Source: Krasilnikoviella flava
Lineage (GTDB): Bacteria; Actinomycetota; Actinomycetes; Actinomycetales; Cellulomonadaceae
Direction: 5' to 3'
NCBI RefSeq assembly: GCF_900167525.1
Contig: NZ_FUZQ01000002.1
Span: forward strand, 1-64,000
Length of the DNA: 64,000 nt
The position numbers and the translations under genes are program-made. The notes beneath the pieces are model-generated. The model worked only from the letters and a program-made list of their open reading frames with translations. It ran no database searches and was not told the DNA's origin. Shown piece after piece: positions 47,810 through 59,700 of this stretch; position 1 is the stretch's first letter, and each line of letters starts with the position of its first letter.

Positions 47810-48709
47810 CTACAGGTGCGGCAGCACGTGCCGCGCGTACCGCTCGCCGACGGTGCGGGCGGTGTCCCGGGGGTCGGCGGCCCAGATCTCCTCGTTGAAG
47901 ATCTCGGTCTCGACGTCCCCGGTGTACCCCGTCTCGGCGACCCACCGCGAGATCGTCGGGAAGTCGACGTACCCGTCGCCCACGTGGCCGCGCGAGTTGA
48001 GCGGGTCGGCGGCGAGCGGCAGGTTCCAGTCGCACACCTGGTAGCCCGCGATCCGGCCCTCGGCCCCGGCCCGCGCGATCGAGGACCGCAACTGCGGGTC
48101 CCACCACACGTGATAGGTGTCGACGACGACGCCCACGGTCTCGGGGGCGAACGGCGCGGCGAGGTCGAGCGCCTGCCCGAGGGTGGAGATCACGGCGCGG
48201 TCCGCGGCGAACATCGGGTGCAGCGCCTCGAGCACGATCCGCACGTCGTGCTCGGCCGCGAACGGCGCGAGCTCGGCGAGGCGGTCGGCCACCCGGGCGC
48301 GGGCGGCGGCGACGTCCCGGTCGCCCGGCCCGGCGTCCGGGCGGGGCCCCTGGCCGGGCACGCTGAGGGCGGGCAGCCCGCCGACGACGAACACCAGCTC
48401 GCGGGTGCCGACGCCCGCCGTCTCCTCGATCGCGCGCTTGTTGTCGTCGAGGGCGGCCGCGATGCCCGCCTCGTCGGCGGCGGTGAGGAACCCGCCGCGG
48501 CACAGCGACGACACGCGCAGGCCGGCGTCCGACACGATCCGCGCGGCCTTCTCGGCGCCGTGCTCCTGCACCTGGTGGCGCCACAGGCCGACGGCGCCGA
48601 GCCCGGCCGACGCGGCGGCGTCGACCGCCTCGGAGAGCGTGGCGTGCTTGACGGTGGCGGTGTTGAGCGAGCAGCGGCTCAGGTCCGGGGTGCTGCCGGT
48701 GGCGCTCAC
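47810..48709 (-). CDS. Sugar phosphate isomerase/epimerase family TIM barrel
   Basis: A 299-residue AP-endonuclease-2-like barrel, a superfamily of metal-dependent sugar isomerases, epimerases and lyases. Metal-ligand segments are VLEALHPM near residue 150, VVDTYHVWWDP near 190 and NSRGHVGDGYVDF near 240, then VETEIF near 260. The GTG start overlaps the DUF993 stop (GTGA). It is the last gene of a three-gene operon with a DUF993 protein and a Gfo/Idh/MocA oxidoreductase. The pathway is not identified. Confidence 0.82.
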   Translation of the reverse strand: MSATGSTPDLSRCSLNTATVKHATLSEAVDAAASAGLGAVGLWRHQVQEHGAEKAARIVSDAGLRVSSLCRGGFLTAADEAGIAAALDDNKRAIEETAGVGTRELVFVVGGLPALSVPGQGPRPDAGPGDRDVAAARARVADRLAELAPFAAEHDVRIVLEALHPMFAADRAVISTLGQALDLAAPFAPETVGVVVDTYHVWWDPQLRSSIARAGAEGRIAGYQVCDWNLPLAADPLNSRGHVGDGYVDFPTISRWVAETGYTGDVETEIFNEEIWAADPRDTARTVGERYARHVLPHL

Positions 48710-49974
48710 GCGGTCACCCCGTTCGTCACCAGCAGGGCGTCCAGGCGGCGCGCGGCCAGGGCGGGGTCGAGCAGCATGCCGCAGCCGTCGGCAAGACGGG
48801 CCAGCTCCACGAGGTGCGCCAGCGAGCGGCCCGACTGGAGGCCGCCGACCAGCTGGAAGCCGGGCTGGAACCCGTTCAGCCAGGACAGGAACGCCACGCC
48901 CGTCTTGTAGTAGTAGGTCGGCGGCGCGAAGATGTGCCGCCCCAGCTTCTCGGTCGAGGCGAGGATCGCGTGCCCGCGGGCCGCGCCGTCCGGGTCGCCG
49001 GCCGTGCCGGCGTCGAACGCCTGCAGCGCGGTGGACGCGGCCGGGTAGATCGCCGCGAAGATGCCGAGCAGGGCGTCGGAGTGCCCCTGCTCGTCGCCCG
49101 CGATCAGCTCGGGGTAGTTGAAGTCGTCGCCGGTGTACAGGCGCACGGGCGAGCCCTCGAGCGCGGCGAGCGCACGGCGCAGCCCGATCTCGTGCTGCGC
49201 GTCGAGCAGCGAGACCTTGACCCCGTCGACCTTGTCCTGGTGGGCCTTGACGAGGTCGAGGAACGTCGACGTCGCCGACTCCACGTCGTCGGAACCCCAG
49301 TAACCCGCGAGGGCCGGGTCGAACATCGTGCCGAGCCAGTGCAGGACGACGGGCCTGTCCGCCTCGGCCAGCACCGCGTCGTAGACACTGGCGTAGTCCT
49401 CGGGGGAGCGCGCGACCTTCGCCAGCGCGCGCGAGGCCATGACGATGACCTGTGCCCCGGCGTCCTGCACCACGCGGACCTGCTCGCGGTACGCGTCCGT
49501 GACGGCGGCCAGCCCGGCCTCGCCGGGCTCGACGGACGCGGGGTCGAGCTGGTCGGTGCCCGCGCCGCAGGCGATGCGCGCGCCGACGGACGCGGCCTCC
49601 GCCGACGACCGGCGCACGAGCTCCTGCGTCGCGGCCCAGTCCAGGCCCATCCCGCGCTGCGCGGTGTCCATGGCGTCGGCGACGCCCAGGCCGTGCTCCC
49701 AGATCCGGTGCCGGTAGGCGAGCGTCGCGTCCCAGTCCACGAGTGCGGGCGCGCCCGGCACGTTCTCGGCGCCGACCTGCGGCACGACGTGGGCCGCGGC
49801 GAACGCGACGCGCGAGGTGATCGGGCCGGACGGCGTGGTCCACGGGCCGGGCGCGTGCAGCTCGCGCACCTCGGTGCCCGTGGCGCGCCCCGCGGCGTCG
49901 AACCGGGGGAGGCGCACGGTGACGCCGGAGGGCTCCAGCACGGGGAGCAGGCGGGTGGCGGTCGGTGTCGTCAC
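48706..49974 (-). CDS. DUF993 protein (dihydrodipicolinate synthase-like)
   Basis: A 422-residue TIM-barrel protein of a family related to class I aldolases and lyases. The block IACGAGTDQLDPASV near residue 125 and GVKVSLLDAQHEI near 250, with a likely Schiff-base lysine, are family traits. The GTG start overlaps the stop of the oxidoreductase gene. An aldol cleavage of a keto-sugar product is plausible but unproven; the family has no established reaction that I know of. Confidence 0.8.
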   Translation of the reverse strand: MTTPTATRLLPVLEPSGVTVRLPRFDAAGRATGTEVRELHAPGPWTTPSGPITSRVAFAAAHVVPQVGAENVPGAPALVDWDATLAYRHRIWEHGLGVADAMDTAQRGMGLDWAATQELVRRSSAEAASVGARIACGAGTDQLDPASVEPGEAGLAAVTDAYREQVRVVQDAGAQVIVMASRALAKVARSPEDYASVYDAVLAEADRPVVLHWLGTMFDPALAGYWGSDDVESATSTFLDLVKAHQDKVDGVKVSLLDAQHEIGLRRALAALEGSPVRLYTGDDFNYPELIAGDEQGHSDALLGIFAAIYPAASTALQAFDAGTAGDPDGAARGHAILASTEKLGRHIFAPPTYYYKTGVAFLSWLNGFQPGFQLVGGLQSGRSLAHLVELARLADGCGMLLDPALAARRLDALLVTNGVTA

Positions 49975-51143
49975 AGCGTGATCTCCGGGACGTCGAGACG
50001 GCGGCCCTCGGCCGACGACTGCAGGCCCAGCTCGGCGAGCTGCACGCCGCGCGCGGCGGACAGCAGGTCGAAGCGGTGCGGGCGGCCGGCGACGACGTCG
50101 CGCAGGAACTCCTCCCACTGCAGCTTGAAGCCGTTGTCGAGGTCGGCGTTGGCGGGCACCTCGAGCCACTGGTCGCGGAAGGGCTCCGTGACGGGCAGGT
50201 CCGGGTTCCACACGGGCTTGGGGGTGTGGGCGCGCTGCTGCGCGACGCACTTGCGCAGCCCCGCGACGGCCGAGCCGTGGGTGCCGTCGATCTGGAACTC
50301 CACGAGCTCGTCGCGGTACACGCGCACGGCCCAGGAGGAGTTGATCTGCGCCACGACCGGGTCGCCGCCCGGGGTCTCGATCTCGAAGATGCCGTACGCG
50401 GCGTCGTCGGCGGTGGCCGCGTACTCCTTGCCCTGCTCGTCCCATCGGGTGGGGATGTGGGTGGTGGTCTGCGCGTTGACGGTCTTGACCGCGCCGAGGA
50501 TGCCCTCGAGGACGTAGTTCCAGTGGCAGAACATGTCCGTGGTCATGCCGCCGCCGTCCTCCTTGCGGTAGTTCCACGACGGGCGCTGCGCGGCCTGGTG
50601 CTCGCCCTCGAACACCCAGTAGCCGAACTCGCCGCGCAGCGACAGGATGCGGCCGAAGAAGCCCTCGTCCACGAGGCGACGGAGCTTCACCAGGCCGGGC
50701 AGGTACAGCTTGTCGTGCACGACGCCGGCGGTGACGCCGGTCTCGTCGCGCAGCCGGGCCAGGTCGACGGCCTCGGCCAGCGTCTCCGCGGTCGGCTTCT
50801 CGGTGTAGACGTGCTTGCCGGCCTGCATGGCCTTGGTGAGCGTCTTGGCGCGCAGCGACGTCATCGAGGCGTCGAAGACGACGTCGATCGAGGGGTCGGC
50901 GATGATCCCGTCGAGGTCGGTGGTGTATTCCGTGACCCCGTGCTGCTCGGCCAGCTCGGCGAGCTTGGACTCGTTGCGGCCCACGAGCACGGGCTCCACC
51001 TGCACGCGCGAGCCGTCGGGCAGCTCGACGCCGCCCTGGTCGCGGATCGGCAGGATCGAGCGCACGAGGTGCTGGCGGTAGCCCATGCGGCCGGTGACGC
51101 CGTTCATCGCGATGCGCAGGGTGCGCGTGGGAGTGGTGCTCAC
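49971..51143 (-). CDS. Gfo/Idh/MocA family oxidoreductase
   Basis: A 390-residue NAD(P)-dependent dehydrogenase. The Rossmann start is LRIAMNGVTGRMGYRQHLVRS (loop GVTGRMGY), the EKPTAET motif lies near residue 118, and MTTDMFCHWNYVLEGILG near 200 holds the usual catalytic region, with H in place of the canonical spacing. First gene of the operon under the promoter at 51189-51235. It probably oxidises a sugar, giving a keto-sugar for the two TIM barrels. Confidence 0.85.
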   Translation of the reverse strand: MSTTPTRTLRIAMNGVTGRMGYRQHLVRSILPIRDQGGVELPDGSRVQVEPVLVGRNESKLAELAEQHGVTEYTTDLDGIIADPSIDVVFDASMTSLRAKTLTKAMQAGKHVYTEKPTAETLAEAVDLARLRDETGVTAGVVHDKLYLPGLVKLRRLVDEGFFGRILSLRGEFGYWVFEGEHQAAQRPSWNYRKEDGGGMTTDMFCHWNYVLEGILGAVKTVNAQTTTHIPTRWDEQGKEYAATADDAAYGIFEIETPGGDPVVAQINSSWAVRVYRDELVEFQIDGTHGSAVAGLRKCVAQQRAHTPKPVWNPDLPVTEPFRDQWLEVPANADLDNGFKLQWEEFLRDVVAGRPHRFDLLSAARGVQLAELGLQSSAEGRRLDVPEITL

Positions 51144-51235: not shown

Positions 51236-51300
51236 GAAGGGAGCCGTGCCGCCCGCTCGGGACATGCGGGAATCCGGCTGGTTGACACCTCAGGGTCATC

Positions 51301-51322
51301 CGTGTTTCCTATAGGAAACACG
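51301..51322 (+). promoter_or_regulatory. Perfect 22-bp palindrome before the sugar-acid-type cluster
   Basis: CGTGTTTCCTA and its exact reverse complement meet without a spacer. A TATAGG -10-like box sits at its centre, and TTGACA lies at 51282-51287. It is 27 bases before the TTG start of the TIM-barrel gene. GntR (57855) is a likely binder, though an IclR-type protein elsewhere is possible. Confidence 0.6.
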
Positions 51323-51348
51323 ATTCGCCCCGATCGACGGAGATCCCC

Positions 51349-52278
51349 TTGCGTACTGCCGACACCTGGCCCATCGCGGCCAACATGCTGTCCTTCGGCT
51401 CCACGGCCGCGGACGGCACTCCCAACCTCGAGGCCCCCGCGGCGGCGTGGCGGAGCCAGCTCCAGCAGGTGGCCGACCTCGGCTTCACCGACGTCGACCC
51501 CACCGACGCCTGGCTGTCGATCGGGGAGATGAGCGACGTGCGGTTCGACGAGCTGCTCGTCGTCCTCAAGGAGGTCGGGCTCAGCGTGCCGTCCGTGTCG
51601 ACCACGCGCCGCAGCGTCGTGGACGCCGCCCGCGGGGAGGACTACCTGCGGTTCGGGCACACGATCATCGACCGGGCGCCGGCGCTCGGCGCCGAGGTCG
51701 TGAACTTCGGCTTCATGCAGGCGCTCGCGCCCGCCCAGGAGCGGGCGCTGTGGTTCTGGCTCGCCGAGGGGCACCGCGACGACCTCGAGGACACCGAGAA
51801 CCGTGACCTGGCCGTCCGCCGGATCCGGGAGCTCGCCGACCACGCCGCCCAGGTGGGCGTCCAGGTCAGCCTCGAGATGTACGAGGACACGTACATCGGC
51901 ACGCCGGACCTCGCGGTGCGCTTCCTGCAGGACGTCGACCGGGACAACGTCGGCCTCAACCCGGACCTCGGCAACCTCGTGCGCCTGCACCGGGAGATCG
52001 AGGACATCCCGACGATGTTCGCCAAGGTGCTGCCCCACACGAACTTCTGGCACATCAAGAACTACACGCGCGACGTGGACCTGGCGACGGGCGCGTACGC
52101 GACCCACCCGACCCCGCTGGTGCAGGGCGTCGTCAACTACCGCGTGATGATCCGCCAGGCGCTCGAGCACGGTTTCGACGGCGTGTTCGTCTGCGAGCAC
52201 TACGGGTCCGACAGCCTCGGGGTCGCCGCGCTCAACCGCGACTACATCCGCGGCGTCCTGCGCTCCGCCGGGCGCTGA
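51349..52278 (+). CDS. TIM-barrel sugar isomerase/epimerase/decarboxylase-like protein
   Basis: A 309-residue AP-endonuclease-2-type barrel. Likely metal ligands are in SLEMYEDTY near residue 182, NPDLGNLV near 205, NFWHIKNY near 230 and VFVCEHYG near 283. The TTG start has GGAGA upstream. It heads a cluster with a DAK kinase, RpiB-like and TPI-like isomerases, a 3-hydroxyacid dehydrogenase and an MFS carrier. In that setting it may isomerise or decarboxylate a 3-oxo sugar acid (hypothesis). Confidence 0.8.
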   Translation: MRTADTWPIAANMLSFGSTAADGTPNLEAPAAAWRSQLQQVADLGFTDVDPTDAWLSIGEMSDVRFDELLVVLKEVGLSVPSVSTTRRSVVDAARGEDYLRFGHTIIDRAPALGAEVVNFGFMQALAPAQERALWFWLAEGHRDDLEDTENRDLAVRRIRELADHAAQVGVQVSLEMYEDTYIGTPDLAVRFLQDVDRDNVGLNPDLGNLVRLHREIEDIPTMFAKVLPHTNFWHIKNYTRDVDLATGAYATHPTPLVQGVVNYRVMIRQALEHGFDGVFVCEHYGSDSLGVAALNRDYIRGVLRSAGR

Positions 52279-52343
52279 GCCTCCGCCCCTCCGGTGCGCC
52301 CGCGGCGCGCCACCCCGATTCGCACGAGCAAAGGTGCTGGTCC

Positions 52344-54086
52344 ATGACGTACGTCCACAACCGTCCCGAGGACTTCGCCCGCGAGGCCCTGAGCGGCCTC
52401 GTCAAGGCCCATCCGGGCACCCTGCGCCGGGTGCCCGGCGGGGTGGCGCGCGCCGAGGGCACCCGCCCCGGCAAGGTCGCCGTCGTCGTCGGCGGCGGCT
52501 CCGGCCACTACCCGGCGTTCGCCGGGCTGGTCGGCGAGGGCGTGGCCGACGCCGCCGTCTGCGGCGAGGTCTTCGCCTCCCCGTCCACCCGCCAGGTGCT
52601 CGACGTGTGCCGCGCCGCCGACGCGGGCGCCGGCATCTGGCTGTCGTTCGGCAACTACGCCGGTGACGTCCTCAACTTCGGCGCGGCGGCCAGCCGCCTG
52701 CGCGCCCAGGGCGTCGACGTGGCCGTACGCCTCGTGACCGACGACGTCGCCTCGGCCCCCGCGGACCGCGCGGCGGAGCGCCGCGGCGTCGCGGGCGACC
52801 TGGTGGTCTTCAAGGTCGCGGGCGCTGCCGCGGAGTCGGGCGCCGACCTGGCCGAGGTGGACCGTCTCGCGGGGCTGGCGAACGAGCGCACCCGCTCCTT
52901 CGGCGTCGCCTTCGACGGCTGCACGCTGCCCGGCGCGGACTCGCCGCTCTTCAGCCTCCCGGAGGGGACGGCCGGCTGGGGCCTCGGCATCCACGGCGAG
53001 CCGGGCATCGGCGAGGAGCAGGTGCCTCCGGCGGCGGACCTCGCCGCCGAGCTCGTGGGGCGCGTGCTCGCGGACCGGCCCGGCGACGCCGACGGGCGCG
53101 CCGCCGTCCTGCTCAACGGCCTCGGCACGGTGAAGTACGAGGAGCTCTTCGTGCTGTGGGACCGGGTGCACGACCTCCTGCTCGAGCAGGGCGTCACGCT
53201 CGTCGCGCCGCTCGTCGGTGAGTACGTCACCAGCCTCGACATGGCGGGCTGCTCGCTGACCGTCGCGTGGCTCGACGACGAGCTCGAGCCGCTGTGGCTC
53301 GCGCCCGCCACCACGCCCGCGTTCCGGCACGGCGGCTGGCGCGCCGCACCGTCGTCGTCCGCGCCCGAGGCGGCCACCGAGCCGGAGCCGCCGCTCGTCC
53401 TGGCGACCACCGCCGAGGGGGCCGCCGCCGCTCGCACCGTCGTGCGGGCGCTGCACCGCGCGCAGGAGGTGCTGCACGCCGCGGAGGACGAGCTCGGCCG
53501 GCTCGACGCCGTCGCCGGTGACGGCGACCACGGCCGGGGGATGGCGCGCGGGGTCGACGCCGCGGTCGGGGCGGCCGACGAGGCGCTGGCCGCCGGCGCG
53601 GACGCCCCGTCCGTGCTGCGCCGCGCGGCCGACCGCTGGGCCGACCGGGCGGGCGGGACCTCGGGCGCCCTGTGGGGCGTCGGGCTGCTCGCGCTGGCCG
53701 ACGGGCTCGCGGCCGACGTCGCGCTGACCGGCACGCACGTCGCCGACGGCGTCCGCGCCGCTCGCGACGAGGTGTGCGCGGTGGGCGGCGCCCGCGTCGG
53801 GGACAAGACGCTCGTCGACGCGCTCGACCCGGCCGTCGAGGCGCTGGCCGCGGCGCACGCGGACGGCGCGACCGCCGCCGACGCGTGGCGCGCCGCCGTG
53901 CGGGCCGCCCGCGAGGGCGCCGCCCGCACGCAGGACATCACGGCACGTCGCGGCAGGTCGCGCGTGCTGGGGGACAAGAGCCTCGGGGTCGCCGACCCGG
54001 GGGCGACGTCGCTCGCGCTCCTCCTCGCCGAGGTGGGGGCCGCGCTCGGCGTCAGCACGGACGACGTGGAGGTGGCTGCACGATGA
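52344..54086 (+). CDS. Dihydroxyacetone kinase-family (DhaK-DhaL) kinase, probably for a tetrulose
   Basis: A 580-residue fusion. The DhaK domain (1-330) has [12 protein letters not shown] near residue 52, CTLPG near 193 and GIHGEPGI near 215, with the family's conserved substrate-binding region. The DhaL domain (about 360-580) has the Mg-ATP loop [12 protein letters not shown] near 390 and GTSGALWG near 435. Family members phosphorylate dihydroxyacetone or tetruloses. The RpiB-like and TPI-like neighbours, as in erythritol and erythrulose pathways, favour L- or D-erythrulose. Its stop overlaps the next start (ATGA). Confidence 0.88.
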
Positions 54087-54601
54087 CCACGACGCAGGAG
54101 ACGACCGCGCTGCGGGTCGTCGTCGGCTCGGACGACGCCGGGTTCGACTACAAGGAGCTGCTCAAGGCCGACCTCGAGGCCGACGCCCGCGTCGCCTCGG
54201 TCACCGACGTCGGCGTGGGCGCCGACGAGCACACGCACTACCCGTACGTGGGTGCCGCCGCGGCGCGGCTCGTCGCCGAGGGCAAGGCCGACCGGGCGCT
54301 GCTCGTGTGCGGCACGGGCCTCGGCGTCGCCATCGCCGCGAACAAGGTGCCCGGAGTCCGCGCCGTCACCGCCCACGACTCCTTCTCCGTGGAGCGTGCC
54401 GTGCTGTCCAACGACGCCCAGGTGCTGTGCTTCGGCCAGCGCGTGGTCGGTATCGAGCTGGCGCGGCGTCTGCTGCGCGAGTGGCTCGGCTACCGGTTCG
54501 ACCCGACGTCGGCGTCCGCGTCCAAGGTCGCGGCGATCGGCGAGGTCGAGGCCGACGCGGGCACCGGGGCCGTCCCGGAGCCCGTCGGGTCCTGCGGATG
54601 A
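54083..54601 (+). CDS. RpiB-type isomerase, probably D-erythrulose-4-phosphate isomerase
   Basis: A 172-residue protein of the RpiB/LacAB family. [16 protein letters not shown] near residue 12, [22 protein letters not shown] near 72 (catalytic Cys in VCGTG) and [14 protein letters not shown] are signatures. In erythritol-type pathways such enzymes (EryI/DerI) convert D-erythrulose 4-phosphate to D-erythrose 4-phosphate. Start and stop both overlap neighbours (ATGA), so it is in one transcript with the kinase and TPI-like genes. Confidence 0.87.
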
Positions 54602-55371
54602 CCCGCAGGCCGCTCGTCGCCGTCTCCCTCAAGGCGTACCTGGGGGCCGCGGACACGGAGCGCTGGCTCACCGAGGTCGCGGAGGTGGCGACGAGCGCGG
54701 CCACCACCCCGGCGGGCGACGTCGAGCTCGCCGTCCTGCCGTCGTTCCCCCTGCTGCCCGCGGCCGCGCGGCTGCTGGCCAGGACGTCCGCGAGGTGGGG
54801 CGCGCAGGACGTCGCGCCCGGGGCGCAGGGCGCGCAGACCGGCGAGGTCACCGCGGCGCTGCTCGCCGAGCTCGGGTGTCGGCTCGCCGTCGTCGGCCAT
54901 GCCGAGCGGCGCTCGGCGTTCCATGAGGACGGCGACGTGGTGCGCGCCAAGGTGGCCCGCCTCGTCGAGGCGGGGGTGACGCCCCTGCTCTGCGTGGGCG
55001 AGGAGGAACAGACCTCCCCGACGGAGGCCGCCGCGGTCGCCGCGGACCAGCTCGAGGACGCCCTGCGCGGCTCGGGGGCGCCGGACGTCGTCGTCGGCTA
55101 CGAGCCCGTGTGGGCCATCGGCGCCCCCCGCCCCGCGCCCGCCGCGCACGTCGTGACGGTGGCTCGCGCGCTGCGCGAGCGCCTCGACGCGCTCGGCGTC
55201 GAGGGCCGGGTGCTCTACGGCGGGGCCGCCGGCCCGGGCACCCTCACGGCGCTCGCCGGCGCCGTCGACGGGGTGTTCCTCGGGCGGTTCGCCCACGACG
55301 TCGCCGCCCTGCGCGACGTGCTCGACGAGGCCGCGGCCGCGCGACCTGCGGATTCGGCCGTCCGGCCGTGA
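54598..55371 (+). CDS. TPI-like isomerase, probably L-erythrulose-1-phosphate isomerase
   Basis: A 257-residue triosephosphate isomerase homologue. The catalytic Lys lies in VSLKAYLG near residue 11, where TPI normally has NxK. The His is in VVGHAERRS near 100 (normally GHSERR), the Glu in GYEPVWAIG near 165, and the phosphate loop is [10 protein letters not shown] near 208. These changes and the neighbours point to a tetrulose-phosphate isomerase (EryH/LerI type) rather than glycolytic TPI. Confidence 0.85.
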
Positions 55372-55406
55372 CCGCCACAGACTGGACCACGAGAGAGGAA
55401 GCAACG

Positions 55407-56366
55407 ATGGTCACCAGCATCAGCAGCGTCGCCGTGATCGGTGCCGGCTACATGGGAGGCGGCATCGCGCAGTCGCTCGCGCTCGCGGGCCTGCCCGTCA
55501 CGATCGCCGACGTCTCCGCCGAGGCGACCGAGGCCGCCTACGCCCGCCTGCTCGGCGAGGCGCAGGAGTTCGAGGACGAGGGCCTGTACGACGCCGGCGC
55601 GACGGAGACGATCCGCGCGAACCTGCGCACGGCACCGTCGATCGAGGAGGCGGTCGCGGACGTCGACTTCGTCGAGGAGGTCGTCTTCGAGTCGGTCGAG
55701 GTCAAGCACGACGTGCTGGGCCGCATCTCGGCCGCGGCCCGCGAGGACGCGATCATCGGGTCGAACACGTCGACGATCCCCGCCCGGGTGCTCGCGACGG
55801 CGGTGAAGAACCCGGAGCGGTTCCTCACCGTCCACTTCTCGAACCCCGCACCGTTCATCCCGGGCGTCGAGCTCGTGCTCGGCGAGCGCACCGACGAGGC
55901 CGTCGTGCCCGCGGTCAAGGAGCTGCTCGCCAAGGCGGGCCGCGAGGCCGCGATCGTCGCCGACGTGCCCGGCTTCGTGCTCAACCGCCTGCAGTACGTG
56001 CTGCTCAAGGAGGCGATGTCGATCGCCGAGGAGGGCATCGCGTCCCCCGAGGACATCGACACCGTGGTGCGCACGACATTCGGCTTCCGGCTGGGCTTCT
56101 TCGGCCCGTTCGCCATCGCGGACCAGGCCGGCCTGGACGTGTACGCCGGCGGGTTCCGCACCTTCGAGGAGGCCTTCGGCGAGCGGCTGAGCACGCCGGA
56201 CCTCATCCAGGAGGCCGTGGCGGGCGACCGGCGCGGCGTCAAGAACGGCAAGGGCCTGCTGAAGGACTACACGCCGGAGCAGGTCAAGGCGCTCGTCGCC
56301 CACCGCAACAAGGCGTACAGCGAGATGGGTCGCCTCGTGCGCGGTCTCGGGCCGGCCCCGGCCTGA
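55407..56366 (+). CDS. 3-hydroxyacyl-CoA dehydrogenase-fold hydroxyacid dehydrogenase
   Basis: A 319-residue NAD-dependent enzyme. The Rossmann loop is VAVIGAGYMGGGIAQSLALAG; SNTSTIPA near residue 120, HFSNPAPFIPGVELV near 145 and GFVLNRLQYVLLKEA near 190 are 3HCDH family motifs. The family also includes L-gulonate 3-dehydrogenase and carnitine dehydrogenase. No fatty-acid genes are nearby; the MFS sugar-acid carrier follows. It therefore probably oxidises C3 of a sugar acid. AGAGAGGAAG precedes the ATG. Confidence 0.85.
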   Translation: MVTSISSVAVIGAGYMGGGIAQSLALAGLPVTIADVSAEATEAAYARLLGEAQEFEDEGLYDAGATETIRANLRTAPSIEEAVADVDFVEEVVFESVEVKHDVLGRISAAAREDAIIGSNTSTIPARVLATAVKNPERFLTVHFSNPAPFIPGVELVLGERTDEAVVPAVKELLAKAGREAAIVADVPGFVLNRLQYVLLKEAMSIAEEGIASPEDIDTVVRTTFGFRLGFFGPFAIADQAGLDVYAGGFRTFEEAFGERLSTPDLIQEAVAGDRRGVKNGKGLLKDYTPEQVKALVAHRNKAYSEMGRLVRGLGPAPA

Positions 56367-56373
56367 CCTGCCC

Positions 56374-56403
56374 GCGCGGCCCGGCGGAGCCGCCGGGCCG
56401 CGC
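56374..56403. terminator. Perfect 13-bp hairpin between dehydrogenase and carrier genes
   Basis: GCGCGGCCCGGCG and its exact complement flank the loop GAGC. Located 8 bases after the dehydrogenase stop, it could lower read-through into the carrier gene or protect transcript ends. Confidence 0.6.
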
Positions 56404-56474
56404 CGCGACCCACCCCGGGCACCGCTCGTCGCCGAGCCGTGCCCGCCACCACCGAGACACAGGAGTCCTCGCTC

Positions 56475-57812
56475 GTGACACAGGTCATCGAAACCGCCCT
56501 CATCAGGAAGGTGACCCTCCGGCTGCTCCCGCTGCTGGTCGCCCTCTACACGGTCGCGTACATCGACCGGTCCGCGGTCGGCTTCGCCCAGCTCAGCATG
56601 GGGGCGGACGTCGGCATCGGCGACGCCGCGTTCGGCCTCGGGGCGGGGCTGTTCTTCATCGCGTACTTCCTGTTCGAGGTGCCGAGCAACGTCCTCATGC
56701 AGAAGTACGGGCCGCGCATGTGGTTCGTCCGCATCCTCGTGACGTGGGGCATCATCACGATGGCCATGGCGCTCACGCAGGGCCCGGTGAGCTTCTACGT
56801 GCTGCGGTTCCTGCTCGGCGTCGCCGAGGCGGGCTTCTACCCCGGCGTGATCTTCTACCTCACCACCTGGTTCCCGCACCGGCACCGGACGAAGGCCACG
56901 GGCACCTTCGTCATCTCGGCGCCGCTCGCCTTCATCATCATGTCGCCGCTGGCGGGGTGGCTGCTGGGCGTGTCGGGCTTCGGGCTGTCCGGCTGGCAGT
57001 GGCTGTTCGTCGTCGTCGGCGCGGCCGCCGTGCTCATGGCGATCCCCACGTGGAAGCTCCTCCCCGAGGGGCCGCGCCAGGTGAAGTGGCTGTCCAAGGA
57101 CGAGTCCGACTGGATCGAGCACGAGCTCGCGAAGGACAAGGCCGAGCGCAAGCAGGAGGACGGCAAGAACCCGCTGCGCACGCTGATCGACAAGCGGGTC
57201 CTCGTCTTCGCGCTGCTGTTCTTCCCGTCGACGGTCGGCGTCTACGGGCTGTCGTTCTGGCTGCCCCAGGTGGTGGACAGGTTCTCCACCTCGACCCTGC
57301 AGACCGGCCTGCTCACCGACGTGCCCTACCTGTTCGCGCTCGTGGGCGTGCTCGTGACCTCGCGCTGGGCGGCCCGCCACTTCAAGGACAACTGGGTGCC
57401 GCTGGCGTGCCTGTTCGTGGGCGCGGGGCTCGGCATGGGGGCGAGCGCCACCTTCGGGTCCCCGGCGATGCAGCTCGCGTCGCTCTCGCTCGCCGCGTTC
57501 TGCGTCTACTCCATCGCGGGCGTCTTCTGGTCGCTGCCGAGCGGGGTCCTCGCCGGGGCGACGGCGGCGGTCGCCATCGCGGCCATCAACTCGTTCGGCA
57601 ACCTCGGCGGTTTCATCGGCCCGTACGTCGTCGGCCTCTTCACGCAGGCGACCGGCACCACGGAGGCGGGCATGTACTTCCTCATGGTGGTGCTGTTCCT
57701 CGGGGCGCTCGGCACCTTCGCGGCGCGCCGCGCCGTGGGGCGGATCCAGCGGTCGGACGACGCGGTCGCGGCGACGCCGCGCACCGACGGCGCGGACGTC
57801 ACGCGGGTCTGA
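56475..57812 (+). CDS. MFS carrier, anion:cation symporter (sugar-acid) type
   Basis: A 445-residue inner-membrane carrier with twelve hydrophobic helices. LLVALYTVAYIDRSAVGFAQ in helix 1, EVPSNVLMQKYGPR near residue 75 and GVAEAGFYPGVIFYLTTWFP near 120 are hallmarks of the ACS family, which imports hexonates, tartrate and similar anions with protons. GTG at 56475 has AGGAG upstream, so I prefer it to GTG 56439. It defines the substrate of the cluster as a sugar acid (inference). Confidence 0.9.
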   Translation: MTQVIETALIRKVTLRLLPLLVALYTVAYIDRSAVGFAQLSMGADVGIGDAAFGLGAGLFFIAYFLFEVPSNVLMQKYGPRMWFVRILVTWGIITMAMALTQGPVSFYVLRFLLGVAEAGFYPGVIFYLTTWFPHRHRTKATGTFVISAPLAFIIMSPLAGWLLGVSGFGLSGWQWLFVVVGAAAVLMAIPTWKLLPEGPRQVKWLSKDESDWIEHELAKDKAERKQEDGKNPLRTLIDKRVLVFALLFFPSTVGVYGLSFWLPQVVDRFSTSTLQTGLLTDVPYLFALVGVLVTSRWAARHFKDNWVPLACLFVGAGLGMGASATFGSPAMQLASLSLAAFCVYSIAGVFWSLPSGVLAGATAAVAIAAINSFGNLGGFIGPYVVGLFTQATGTTEAGMYFLMVVLFLGALGTFAARRAVGRIQRSDDAVAATPRTDGADVTRV

Positions 57813-57834
57813 CTCGGCGGACGACCGTCGTGCC

Positions 57835-57883
57835 GCGAGCCGGCACCCTCCCCGCTACGCGCCGGGCGAGGGTGCCGGCTCGC
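57835..57883. terminator. Bidirectional terminator between carrier and gntR
   Basis: Perfect 16-bp arms (57835-57850 with 57868-57883) separate convergent genes. The stop codon of gntR lies in the loop. Confidence 0.8.
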
Positions 57884-58562
57884 CGCGTTCCGCCAGCGAC
57901 CGGCTCCGCACGCCCTCGATGTGGCGGCGCATGAGCTCCTGGGCCTGCTCGGGGACGCCCGACCGGATGGCGTCGAGCACCGCGCGGTGCTCGGCGACGG
58001 CGACGTCCTTGTCCGTGACGCCGGTGCCGGAGAACTGGCGGAACCGCTGCACCAGCCCCCCGAGCGCCGCGAACGCGGCCTGCAGGTAGGTGTTGTCGGC
58101 GGCCTCCGCGACCAGGGTGTGGAAGCGCTCGTCGGCCTCCCAGTAGTCGCGGAACTCCTGGTAAGTGGGGCCGTTGGGGGAGGCCTCCAGCTCCGCGACG
58201 GCGCGCTCGAGCGCGGCGACGAACTCGCCGTCGCCGCGCGCGCAGGCGTAGAAGGCGTTCACCGGCTCGACGGCGAGGCGGGCGTCCATGAGGTCCGCCA
58301 GCTCCTTGGCCGTGGGGGCCGGTGCCACGAAGTAGCCCCGCAGGGCCACGCGGTGCACCATGCCGGTGGCCTCGAGGCGGGCCAGCGCCTCGCGCACGGG
58401 GGTGGGGGAGACGTCCAGGTCCCGGGCGAGGGCGTCGATGTTGAGGCTGCTGCCCGCCGCCAGGGTGCCGTCCATGAGCCGCGACAGGAGCTCGTCGAAC
58501 ACGTGGTCGGCGAGCACCCGGCGCCGCACGGGCGTCGTGGTCGGAGCGCTGGTCCTGGGCAC
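57855..58562 (-). CDS. GntR-family regulator, FCD (FadR) subfamily
   Basis: A 235-residue regulator. The winged helix covers residues 12-75 (VFDELLSRLMDGTLAAGSSLN, then VSPTPVREALARLEATGMV). The FCD effector domain follows (DARLAVEPVNAFYACAR, DERFHTLVAEAADN, VAEHRAVLDAI), with the metal-binding Asp/His pattern typical of regulators that sense carboxylic acids. A GTG start, no Shine-Dalgarno site and TAGAAT seven bases upstream suggest a leaderless transcript. It is the likely controller of the sugar-acid cluster it converges on. Confidence 0.88.
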   Translation of the reverse strand: MPRTSAPTTTPVRRRVLADHVFDELLSRLMDGTLAAGSSLNIDALARDLDVSPTPVREALARLEATGMVHRVALRGYFVAPAPTAKELADLMDARLAVEPVNAFYACARGDGEFVAALERAVAELEASPNGPTYQEFRDYWEADERFHTLVAEAADNTYLQAAFAALGGLVQRFRQFSGTGVTDKDVAVAEHRAVLDAIRSGVPEQAQELMRRHIEGVRSRSLAERGEPAPSPGA

Positions 58563-58686: not shown

Positions 58687-59700
58687 GTGCCCCGAGCGAG
58701 GCTGCAGGACGTCGCCGACCGCGCGGGGGTCTCCCTCGCCACGGCTTCGCGGGTGCTCAACGGGTCGGCGCGCCAGCCCGGGGCCGACCTGGTCGCCCGG
58801 GTCAGGGCCGCTGCGGCGGAGCTGGGCTACGTCGTGAACGCGCAGGCGCAAGCCCTGGCGCGCGCCCGGTCGGGGCTCCTCGGCCTGGTCGTGCAGGACA
58901 TCTCCGACCCGTACTTCTCCTCCATCGCCGCCGGGGCGCAGGACGCGGCGCGGGCGAGCGGACGCCTCGTGCTGCTCGCGTCCACCGGTCGGGACCCCGA
59001 GGCGGAGCGGGAGGCGGTCGCCGCCTTCGCCGCGCACCGGGTCGAGGCGGTCGTCGTCGCCGGCACGCGCTGGACACCCGACGAGGACGCCGCCCTCGCG
59101 GCCGAGCTCGACGCGTTCGTCGCCGCCGGCGGCCGGTCCGTCATCGTCGGCCAGCCCGTAGGCGACGGCGGGGTGGTGCGCCCGCCCAACGCCACGGGGG
59201 CCCGCGCTCTCGCGGAGGCCTTGCTGGCACAGGGGCAGCGGCGGTTCGTCGTGCTCGGGGGGCCGGCGCGCGTCGTGACGTCGCGCGAGCGGACCGACGC
59301 GTTCACGGCCGCCGCCGGGGCCGCAGGCGCCGAGGTCGCGGAGGTGCTGGTCACCGAGTTCTCCCGCGACGGCGGCTACGCGGCCGGCGACGACGTCGCC
59401 GCGCTGGTGCGCGCCGACACGGCCGGCGAGCCGCTGACGGTCTTCGCCGTCACCGACGTCATGGCGATCGGGCTCATCGCCCGCCTGCGCGAGCTGGGCG
59501 TCGAGGTGCCGCGCGACGTGCGGGTCGCCGGGTTCGACGACGTCCCCACCCTGCGCGACCATGTGCCGGCGCTGTCCACCGTGCGCATCCCGCTCGAGGA
59601 GATGGGCAGCCTCGCCGTGCAGGCCGCCGTCGGCGAGACCGCGCCCGGCGCCGTCACCGAGATCGACTTCGAGGTACAGCTGCGCGACTCCACGCGCTGA
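58687..59700 (+). CDS. LacI-family regulator
   Basis: A 337-residue repressor with helix-turn-helix LQDVADRAGVSLATASRVLNGS at residues 6-27 (key motif RAGVSLATASRVLNG), followed by the ligand domain (AVTDVMAIGLIARL, VAGFDDVPTLRDHVPALSTV). GTG start with GGAGGTGAGAC upstream. No carbohydrate gene adjoins it directly; the LacI-type palindrome at 51189-51202 is a candidate target. Confidence 0.87.
   Translation: MPRARLQDVADRAGVSLATASRVLNGSARQPGADLVARVRAAAAELGYVVNAQAQALARARSGLLGLVVQDISDPYFSSIAAGAQDAARASGRLVLLASTGRDPEAEREAVAAFAAHRVEAVVVAGTRWTPDEDAALAAELDAFVAAGGRSVIVGQPVGDGGVVRPPNATGARALAEALLAQGQRRFVVLGGPARVVTSRERTDAFTAAAGAAGAEVAEVLVTEFSRDGGYAAGDDVAALVRADTAGEPLTVFAVTDVMAIGLIARLRELGVEVPRDVRVAGFDDVPTLRDHVPALSTVRIPLEEMGSLAVQAAVGETAPGAVTEIDFEVQLRDSTR

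Follow-up and report, generated by a model that had tools for sequence, protein, structure and literature searches.

A putative actinobacterial operon for a free five-carbon sugar acid with a predicted entry through L-erythrulose

What might a kinase of the dihydroxyacetone kinase (DAK) type be doing beside two isomerases, a dehydrogenase of the 3-hydroxyacyl-coenzyme A (CoA) dehydrogenase fold and an acid-type transporter? This question is raised by positions 51349-58562 of a 64,000-nucleotide stretch of the Krasilnikoviella flava genome (4.85 Mb; assembly GCF_900167525.1, contig NZ_FUZQ01000002.1, positions 1 to 64,000; hereafter the window), where six co-directional genes on the + strand are followed by a GntR/FCD regulator gene on the - strand. 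In their order, the six encode an AP_endonuc_2 TIM barrel (hereafter TIMb), the DAK kinase, an RpiB-like protein, a TPI-like protein, the 3HCDH-fold dehydrogenase (hereafter HCDH) and an ACS-type MFS transporter. A sequence-only reading of this DNA had named all of these genes, and domain searches recovered each of them on the strand it had given. The gaps along the + strand genes are small (65, -4, -4, 35 and 72 bp), and thus they likely constitute a single operon.

We propose that the operon is catabolic and regulated and that its substrate is a free C5 sugar acid, which would enter metabolism via L-erythrulose; we place the probability of this reading at roughly one half. In the proposed pathway, the MFS carrier would import the acid (step 1), HCDH would oxidise its C3 hydroxyl with NAD (step 2) and TIMb, with a divalent metal, would decarboxylate the resulting 3-oxo acid to L-erythrulose (step 3). 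The DAK kinase would then yield L-erythrulose 1-phosphate (step 4), the TPI-like enzyme would convert it to D-erythrulose 4-phosphate (step 5), and an isomerisation to D-erythrose 4-phosphate (step 6) would complete the route. The GntR/FCD protein would repress the operon through a palindromic operator until an intermediate binds. The support at the level of sequence comes from the gene content, its conservation, a shared operator core, the replacement of the dehydrogenase and the presence of separate housekeeping-type copies of the kinase and isomerases; from these we infer every reaction and the binding by the regulator.

The kinase and isomerase module

The kinase (52344-54086, + strand) is of the ATP type, a fusion of both DAK domains (Dak1-Dak2), as recognised by Pfam and NCBIfam models. 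Its family retains an HGEPG motif in 61 of 62 members and a GDGDHG motif in 58 of them, which we take to provide the substrate His and the metal/ADP motif, respectively. The sole other Dak1 match in the genome belongs to a DhaK-DhaL-(EIIA-man/HPr) set at C4, with 45% identity over DhaK; likewise, the genome encodes another RpiB outside the operon, as well as a TPI of the canonical type. Given this separate DhaKLM-type set and these additional isomerases, the operon copies are probably specialised and distinct from their housekeeping-type counterparts. The RpiB-like protein (54083-54601, + strand) has a LacAB_rpiB domain, and the TPI-like protein (54598-55371, + strand) a TIM/TPI domain with SLK and GHAER in place of the NWK and GHSER of the genome's canonical TPI, which bears out, for this protein, the altered active-site flanks that had been read from the sequence. 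Across the TPI-like family, 8 of 51 rows are missed by the start-motif pattern used and 36 of the 51 by the third pattern.

In earlier accounts, LerK is an L-erythrulose 1-kinase, with LerI and DerI converting L-erythrulose 1-phosphate to D-erythrose 4-phosphate (PMC10733421), and the erythritol cluster of the yeast Yarrowia likewise has DAK-, TPI- and RpiB-type genes (PMC5992420). The K. flava locus resembles the LerK/LerI/DerI and EryH/EryI modules and the yeast EYK1/EYI1 cluster in gathering a DAK kinase, a TPI-like and an RpiB-like protein in one cluster, apart from the other copies in the genome. It differs from all of them in that an acid-type transporter, HCDH and TIMb take the place of the polyol dehydrogenase. 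The earlier suggestion that the three genes form a module from L-erythrulose to D-erythrose 4-phosphate is supported, and the kinase is distinct from the genome's phosphotransferase-system-type DhaKLM set; we consider it very probable that the trio would carry out steps 4-6.

A shared operator core and the exchange of dehydrogenases

A perfect 20-bp palindrome, GTGTTTCCTATAGGAAACAC, at 51302-51321, lies 27 bp before TIMb and is a candidate operator (1 match as against 0.00 expected in 100 shuffles). Its 12-mer core has one exact copy in the genome, plus one site with a single mismatch. Across 99 loci, the 10-bp core TCCTATAGGA has 67 exact sites, as against 0.46 expected from base composition, and all 67 fall outside called genes. 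They are positioned before TIMb in 45 cases, before the DAK gene in 28 and before the GntR gene in 8, where one site may count for two divergent genes. In several loci (L040, L080, L083, L092, L093, L097, L100, L110 and L136) TIMb and DAK are in separate units, each with a site of its own, which joins both halves in a single regulon even where they lie apart. The GntR/FCD family is represented in 51 of 83 clustered loci, and from this linkage we predict that the window's member (57855-58562, - strand; GntR and FCD domains) binds the palindrome. A TTGACA hexamer at 51282-51287 (+ strand), read directly from the sequence, could be a -35 element with no -10 element at the standard spacing; a consensus scan recovered no full promoter upstream of TIMb.

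The grouping of these genes, first proposed from the window alone, holds up in a comparison of genome neighborhoods: it is met again in many genomes, beyond chance, and extends over numerous genera of actinobacteria and a small number of proteobacteria. Among 296 genomes of the phylum, HCDH homologs with 54-66% identity were recovered in G074, G008 (two copies) and G257, with the next ones at 44% or less; one copy in each of these three lies beside TIMb, DAK, RpiB, TPI and GntR genes. The other copy of G008 (53%; L039:8827-11941) lacks this neighborhood, TIMb included; it adjoins an SDR and a protein of the histidinol dehydrogenase family, and possibly represents a polyol-to-acid route with the same type of dehydrogenase. 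More distant homologs (41-44%) occur in another family of the phylum (L041-L048); the one in L046 has as neighbors a protein of the metallo-beta-lactamase fold, a reductase of the ApbA type and an iron alcohol dehydrogenase, which represents a different pathway.

TIMb itself is found, at a threshold of 1e-40, in 19 of 394 genomes of the class, a less biased count than that from our 84 TIMb loci, in which near relatives prevail (the 80 named loci, being the best 80 of at least 549 relatives, lean to close kin). In the fetched stretches of these 19 genomes, 12 have HCDH, three a PdxA-family dehydrogenase with TctA, four neither and none both, and DAK is present in 16. Of the four with neither, L138 encodes a dehydrogenase of the isocitrate/isopropylmalate type and a TctA homolog near TIMb, and L141 is cut by a contig end. 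The 84 loci show the same exclusion, with HCDH in 57 (including short copies in L059 and L101; 55 when more than 500 bp is required, as in the distance, tree and class counts), PdxA in 11, each of these with TctA, and both in none. The distances between TIMb sequences and those between their HCDH partners are correlated (r=0.88 over 62 loci, the largest of 500 permutations being 0.21), and part of this correlation stems from the genomes' shared ancestry. In a TIMb tree of 97 rows, built with a quick method, the PdxA label requires 8 changes, all 8 being forced by starred branches; the tree leaves out L145 and L134, whose TIMb is identical to that of L079, and L134 is retained in the operator and class-wide counts.

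The exchange is visible among the closest kin. The nearest named TIMb relatives among the matches listed are from Isoptericola species, at 93% and 91%. The locus with the 93% TIMb (L051) has HCDH, and that with the 91% TIMb (L052), placed beside the window's own clade, has PdxA and TctA after a TIMb-DAK-RpiB-TPI-GntR array, with no HCDH within its 20.9 kb, the remaining genome not having been searched. The simplest reading is that HCDH and PdxA, which are unrelated dehydrogenases, would do equivalent work. The oxidation carried out by PdxA is that of a hydroxyl in the position beta to a carboxylate, and HCDH is proposed to catalyse the same reaction. L143 is an odd variant: its TIMb, DAK and RpiB are accompanied by an ABC transporter whose binding protein is of the Bmp type and by a gene of the adenosine deaminase family, with neither HCDH nor PdxA in the stretch.

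These associations also bear on whether the locus is instead an erythritol/threitol (tetritol) pathway like that of Mycobacterium smegmatis, in which case HCDH and TIMb would have other, unrelated functions. The same kinase and isomerase trio does belong to tetritol catabolism in two accounts (PMC10733421, PMC12780249), and SDRs and ABC transporters are present near TIMb in some other loci. However, the six genes of the operon include neither a polyol dehydrogenase nor an ABC transporter, TIMb stays with HCDH across genomes, and TIMb and DAK share an operator core; hence, we hold a tetritol pathway to be very unlikely.

The dehydrogenase and the TIM barrel

HCDH (55407-56366, + strand) combines 3HCDH_N and 3HCDH domains. 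Its AlphaFold 2 (AF2) model has a predicted local distance difference test (pLDDT) score of 91.7, and S122, H143, E155 and N193 are invariant across 29 sequences. It thus displays both the fold and the catalytic Ser/His/Glu/Asn of 3-hydroxyacyl-CoA dehydrogenases, with the roles of these residues presumably being those in human HADH. Two further motifs, H..NP....P.VE and GFRL.FFGPF, are present in all 53 members of the family. The nearest solved relative by sequence is a pyridine-carboxylate enzyme, the FHMPC dehydrogenase 4om8, which it resembles in fold, in the His/Glu pair, in the Pro of the HxxNPxxxxPxVE segment and in a longer loop before GP. This Pro (P152), directly before VE, is replaced by Lys or Gln in the CoA-type enzymes 3mog, 9fbd, 6aa8 and 4kug. 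Alignment with these four shows that HCDH has a longer loop before GP and neither their MKL/MQL segment nor their short loop, which we infer to be marks of CoA use. L-gulonate 3-dehydrogenase/lambda-crystallin and L-carnitine dehydrogenase are free-acid enzymes of the 3HCDH fold that share such motifs; HCDH differs from these in forming a subfamily of its own that reaches not one NCBIfam cut-off and is coupled to TIMb and an L-erythrulose-type kinase.

Could HCDH nevertheless be a true acyl-CoA enzyme that merely lies beside a dihydroxyacetone-type module? Its fold and its best Foldseek matches, which are 3-hydroxybutyryl-CoA dehydrogenases, with CoA-type enzymes ranked above 4om8 (rank 22), speak for this. 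Yet, apart from the unmet cut-offs and the signature segments unlike those of the four CoA-type enzymes, no thiolase, hydratase or ligase was found among the operon genes, the linkage to TIMb is tight and a PdxA-family enzyme stands in HCDH's place in 11 of the 84 loci, making such a role highly improbable. The earlier picture of a 3HCDH-fold dehydrogenase next to an acid-type transporter and a TIM barrel stands, with the CoA-type segments lacking in the former and a metal site present in the barrel, and HCDH is probably the enzyme of the NAD-dependent C3 oxidation of a sugar acid (step 2).

TIMb (51349-52278, + strand; Pfam PF01261) is the proposed 3-oxo-acid decarboxylase. Its gene starts with TTG, preceded by a GGAG, although a codon-usage caller favored 51385 instead. 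Both the nearest structure (E 2e-119; 60% identity by Foldseek) and the nearest PDB fold of its AF2 model (pLDDT 95.2) are 5tnv, a xylose-isomerase-like TIM barrel of M. smegmatis solved with Mg; the deposited name of this close relative carries no function. Among 33 sequences, conservation of E176, D206, H235 and E283 is complete or at least 90%, and these residues presumably match those that bind the metal in ketose 3-epimerases. In the same sequences R87, R212, R215, K237, R241 and R265 are invariant, and such a set of Arg and Lys residues would suit an acid substrate.

Several observations weigh against the proposed pathway, and a part of them concerns TIMb. Apart from 5tnv, most of the folds nearest to TIMb are those of epimerases and isomerases acting on ketoses and ketose phosphates, and none of the 50 folds listed for TIMb is named a decarboxylase. 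Further, PdxA-family enzymes normally decarboxylate while oxidising; therefore, a TIMb decarboxylase would be redundant beside PdxA, and TIMb might be an isomerase or epimerase. Among the trio, the TPI-like protein scores higher against an ordinary TPI (1yya, 141.4 bits) than against an L-erythrulose-1-phosphate isomerase (11ef, 98.6 bits), and the RpiB-like protein reaches 194.9 bits on the ribose-5-phosphate isomerase model TIGR02133, over its cut-off of 168.2, as against 141.9 bits on the curated DerI model, under its cut-off of 240, which sets it apart from the DerI of the LerK/LerI/DerI module. The exact operator core is present in 49 of the 99 loci and absent from the other 50, and the HCDH and PdxA counts cover only the stretches fetched around TIMb. 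Finally, some loci (e.g. L059, L104, L143 and L144) have ABC sugar transporters near TIMb, and the identity of the substrate is drawn only from neighbors in other genomes.

An isomerase or epimerase could act, for instance, between a 2-oxo and a 3-oxo acid, or before or after the oxidation, with CO2 being lost spontaneously, which is possible, or through the dehydrogenase, and the pathway would have the same end. The nearest characterised folds, namely UlaE and the ketose 3-epimerases, are in keeping with this, as are the usual self-decarboxylation of PdxA-type partners and the presence of 2-hydroxyacid dehydrogenases and of LtnD-like enzymes among the neighbors of TIMb in some loci, of Brachybacterium and others. 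Nevertheless, the passage from a C5 acid to a C4 ketose needs the removal of CO2, and TIMb is the only other uncommitted enzyme of the operon beside HCDH; the NCBIfam families that HCDH matches are not known to be oxidative decarboxylases. We thus regard the isomerase role as doubtful and, on balance, lean slightly toward TIMb being the decarboxylase of step 3.

The substrate and the wider neighborhood

The transporter (56439-57812, + strand; MFS_1) scores 285.6 bits on TIGR00893, for which the cut-off is 395, and its best NCBIfam names, D-galactonate and 4-hydroxyphenylacetate permeases, are both under their cut-offs; uptake of a sugar acid is its proposed role. The transporters near TIMb in the 84 loci are of different classes, with GntP in 30, MFS in 21 (the window included) and TctA in 13, among which are all 11 PdxA loci.

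D-apionate had been put forward as an attractive substrate. The D-apiose/D-apionate pathways do resemble the proposed one in taking in an acid, forming a 3-oxo acid and losing CO2. ApnO, OiaC, OiaK, OiaX and OiaT are names known from such pathways, and one apionate branch ends at L-erythrulose; Carter and colleagues, in 2018, reportedly described this branch with L-erythrulose as the end product and the LerK/LerI/DerI trio. With D-apionate or a close branched acid as substrate, TIMb would be an OiaC-type 3-oxo-isoapionate decarboxylase, and the end product and trio of the locus fit that branch. Moreover, ApnO is encoded in 8 of the 84 TIMb loci, mostly of Brachybacterium, and an ApnL-like gene in two. 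However, ApnO was not seen in the other 76, and in all 8 a separate AP_endonuc_2 protein lies about 1 kb from it, that of L066 showing 23% local identity to TIMb. In the K. flava genome itself neither the lactonase ApnL nor the oxidoisomerase ApnO was found, with the ApnL model matching in G664, G665 and G667 and the ApnO query being without a positive control. The ApnL of G664 (1042.6 as against a cut-off of 750) sits in a cluster that also encodes ApnO, a RuBisCO-like protein and what is probably a kinase of sugar acids, presumably a homolog of the DUF1537-type kinases, whereas TIMb is about 45 kb away. Among 289 genomes of its class (alphaproteobacteria), ApnL at 1e-100 is present in 8 (one over the cut-off) and TIMb in one; the alphaproteobacterial ApnL homologs are mostly under the curated cut-off, and their neighborhoods (L151-L157) say little. 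In addition, the tertiary C3 alcohol of apionate could not be oxidised by a dehydrogenase. The K. flava locus thus departs from the apionate pathways in having no detected ApnL or ApnO, a different dehydrogenase fold and a TIMb unlike the ApnO-linked barrel, and an apionate substrate is unlikely. On the whole, the L-erythrulose/D-erythrose 4-phosphate module, the acid transporter and the 3HCDH-fold dehydrogenase of the sequence-only reading stand, and D-apionate is not supported.

Returning to the free C5 acid of the proposed pathway, the C3 of L-erythrulose would derive from C4 of a pentonate, and hence its substrate would be L-configured at C4. An FMN (flavin mononucleotide)-dependent 2-hydroxyacid dehydrogenase is encoded in 11 of the 84 loci and a D-2-hydroxyacid dehydrogenase in 15, with the two together in several Brachybacterium loci; such a pair could invert C2, which would be a clue to a linear acid. 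An ArfA arabinofuranosidase gene directly follows HCDH in L142 (726 as against a cut-off of 625), and GH39 genes are present in seven loci (two families, one member of each typed); these plant-wall genes are suggestive of L-arabinose as the source. We tentatively favor a linear L-configured pentonate, such as L-arabinonate or an epimer, as a conceivable substrate. Ascorbate-derived L-xylonate or L-lyxonate was also considered: threonate-type genes occur near TIMb, including those for an LtnD-like HIBADH in 9 of the 84 loci and for an SBD_N/NBD_C kinase labelled OtnK, but the two HIBADH proteins tested were under the ThreonDh cut-off, and this was set aside as only an idea.

Some Brachybacterium loci (L090, L066, L080 and L083) bring ApnO with its TIM barrel, PdxA-Tct, HCDH, the FMN-dependent and D-2-hydroxyacid dehydrogenases and LtnD-like enzymes together around a single TIMb, and may possibly be a hub for sugar acids. 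In the window, a divergent trio on the - strand (47810-51143) encodes a Gfo/Idh/MocA protein and what we take to be a DUF993-type protein and a TIM barrel. It was considered as a part of the pathway and rejected, since only 7 of 83 loci, Mycobacterium L068 among them, have it in the vicinity of TIMb and it lies apart from TIMb in L056; it probably acts on a substrate of its own. Past the GntR gene lies a LacI regulator gene (58687-59700), a relative of which adjoins the Gfo trio in L055 and L056, and thus it probably belongs to that trio.

No description of the gene set or of the route was found in the openly licensed literature, and its novelty is most likely that of a new entry to a known module. 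As a more general, still speculative proposal, free L-pentonates would be the substrates of a widespread non-phosphorylative aldonate pathway in Actinobacteria, with C3 oxidation and decarboxylation to L-erythrulose. Such a pathway would be organized around one TIM barrel, with acid transporters of three classes, often one TCCTATAGGA operator and exchangeable NAD dehydrogenases of unrelated folds, these being the 3HCDH-fold and PdxA-family enzymes and perhaps isocitrate-dehydrogenase-like and SDR enzymes too. If this is true, pentose acids would gain a direct entry to erythrose 4-phosphate, and functions would be at hand both for the orphan structure 5tnv and for a 3HCDH subfamily that best matches pyridine-carboxylate and acyl-CoA dehydrogenases. 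It would also account for a gene set that numerous actinobacterial genera share with a few proteobacteria, and in which one conserved enzyme served by interchangeable, unrelated dehydrogenases would be a clear case of natural pathway rewiring.

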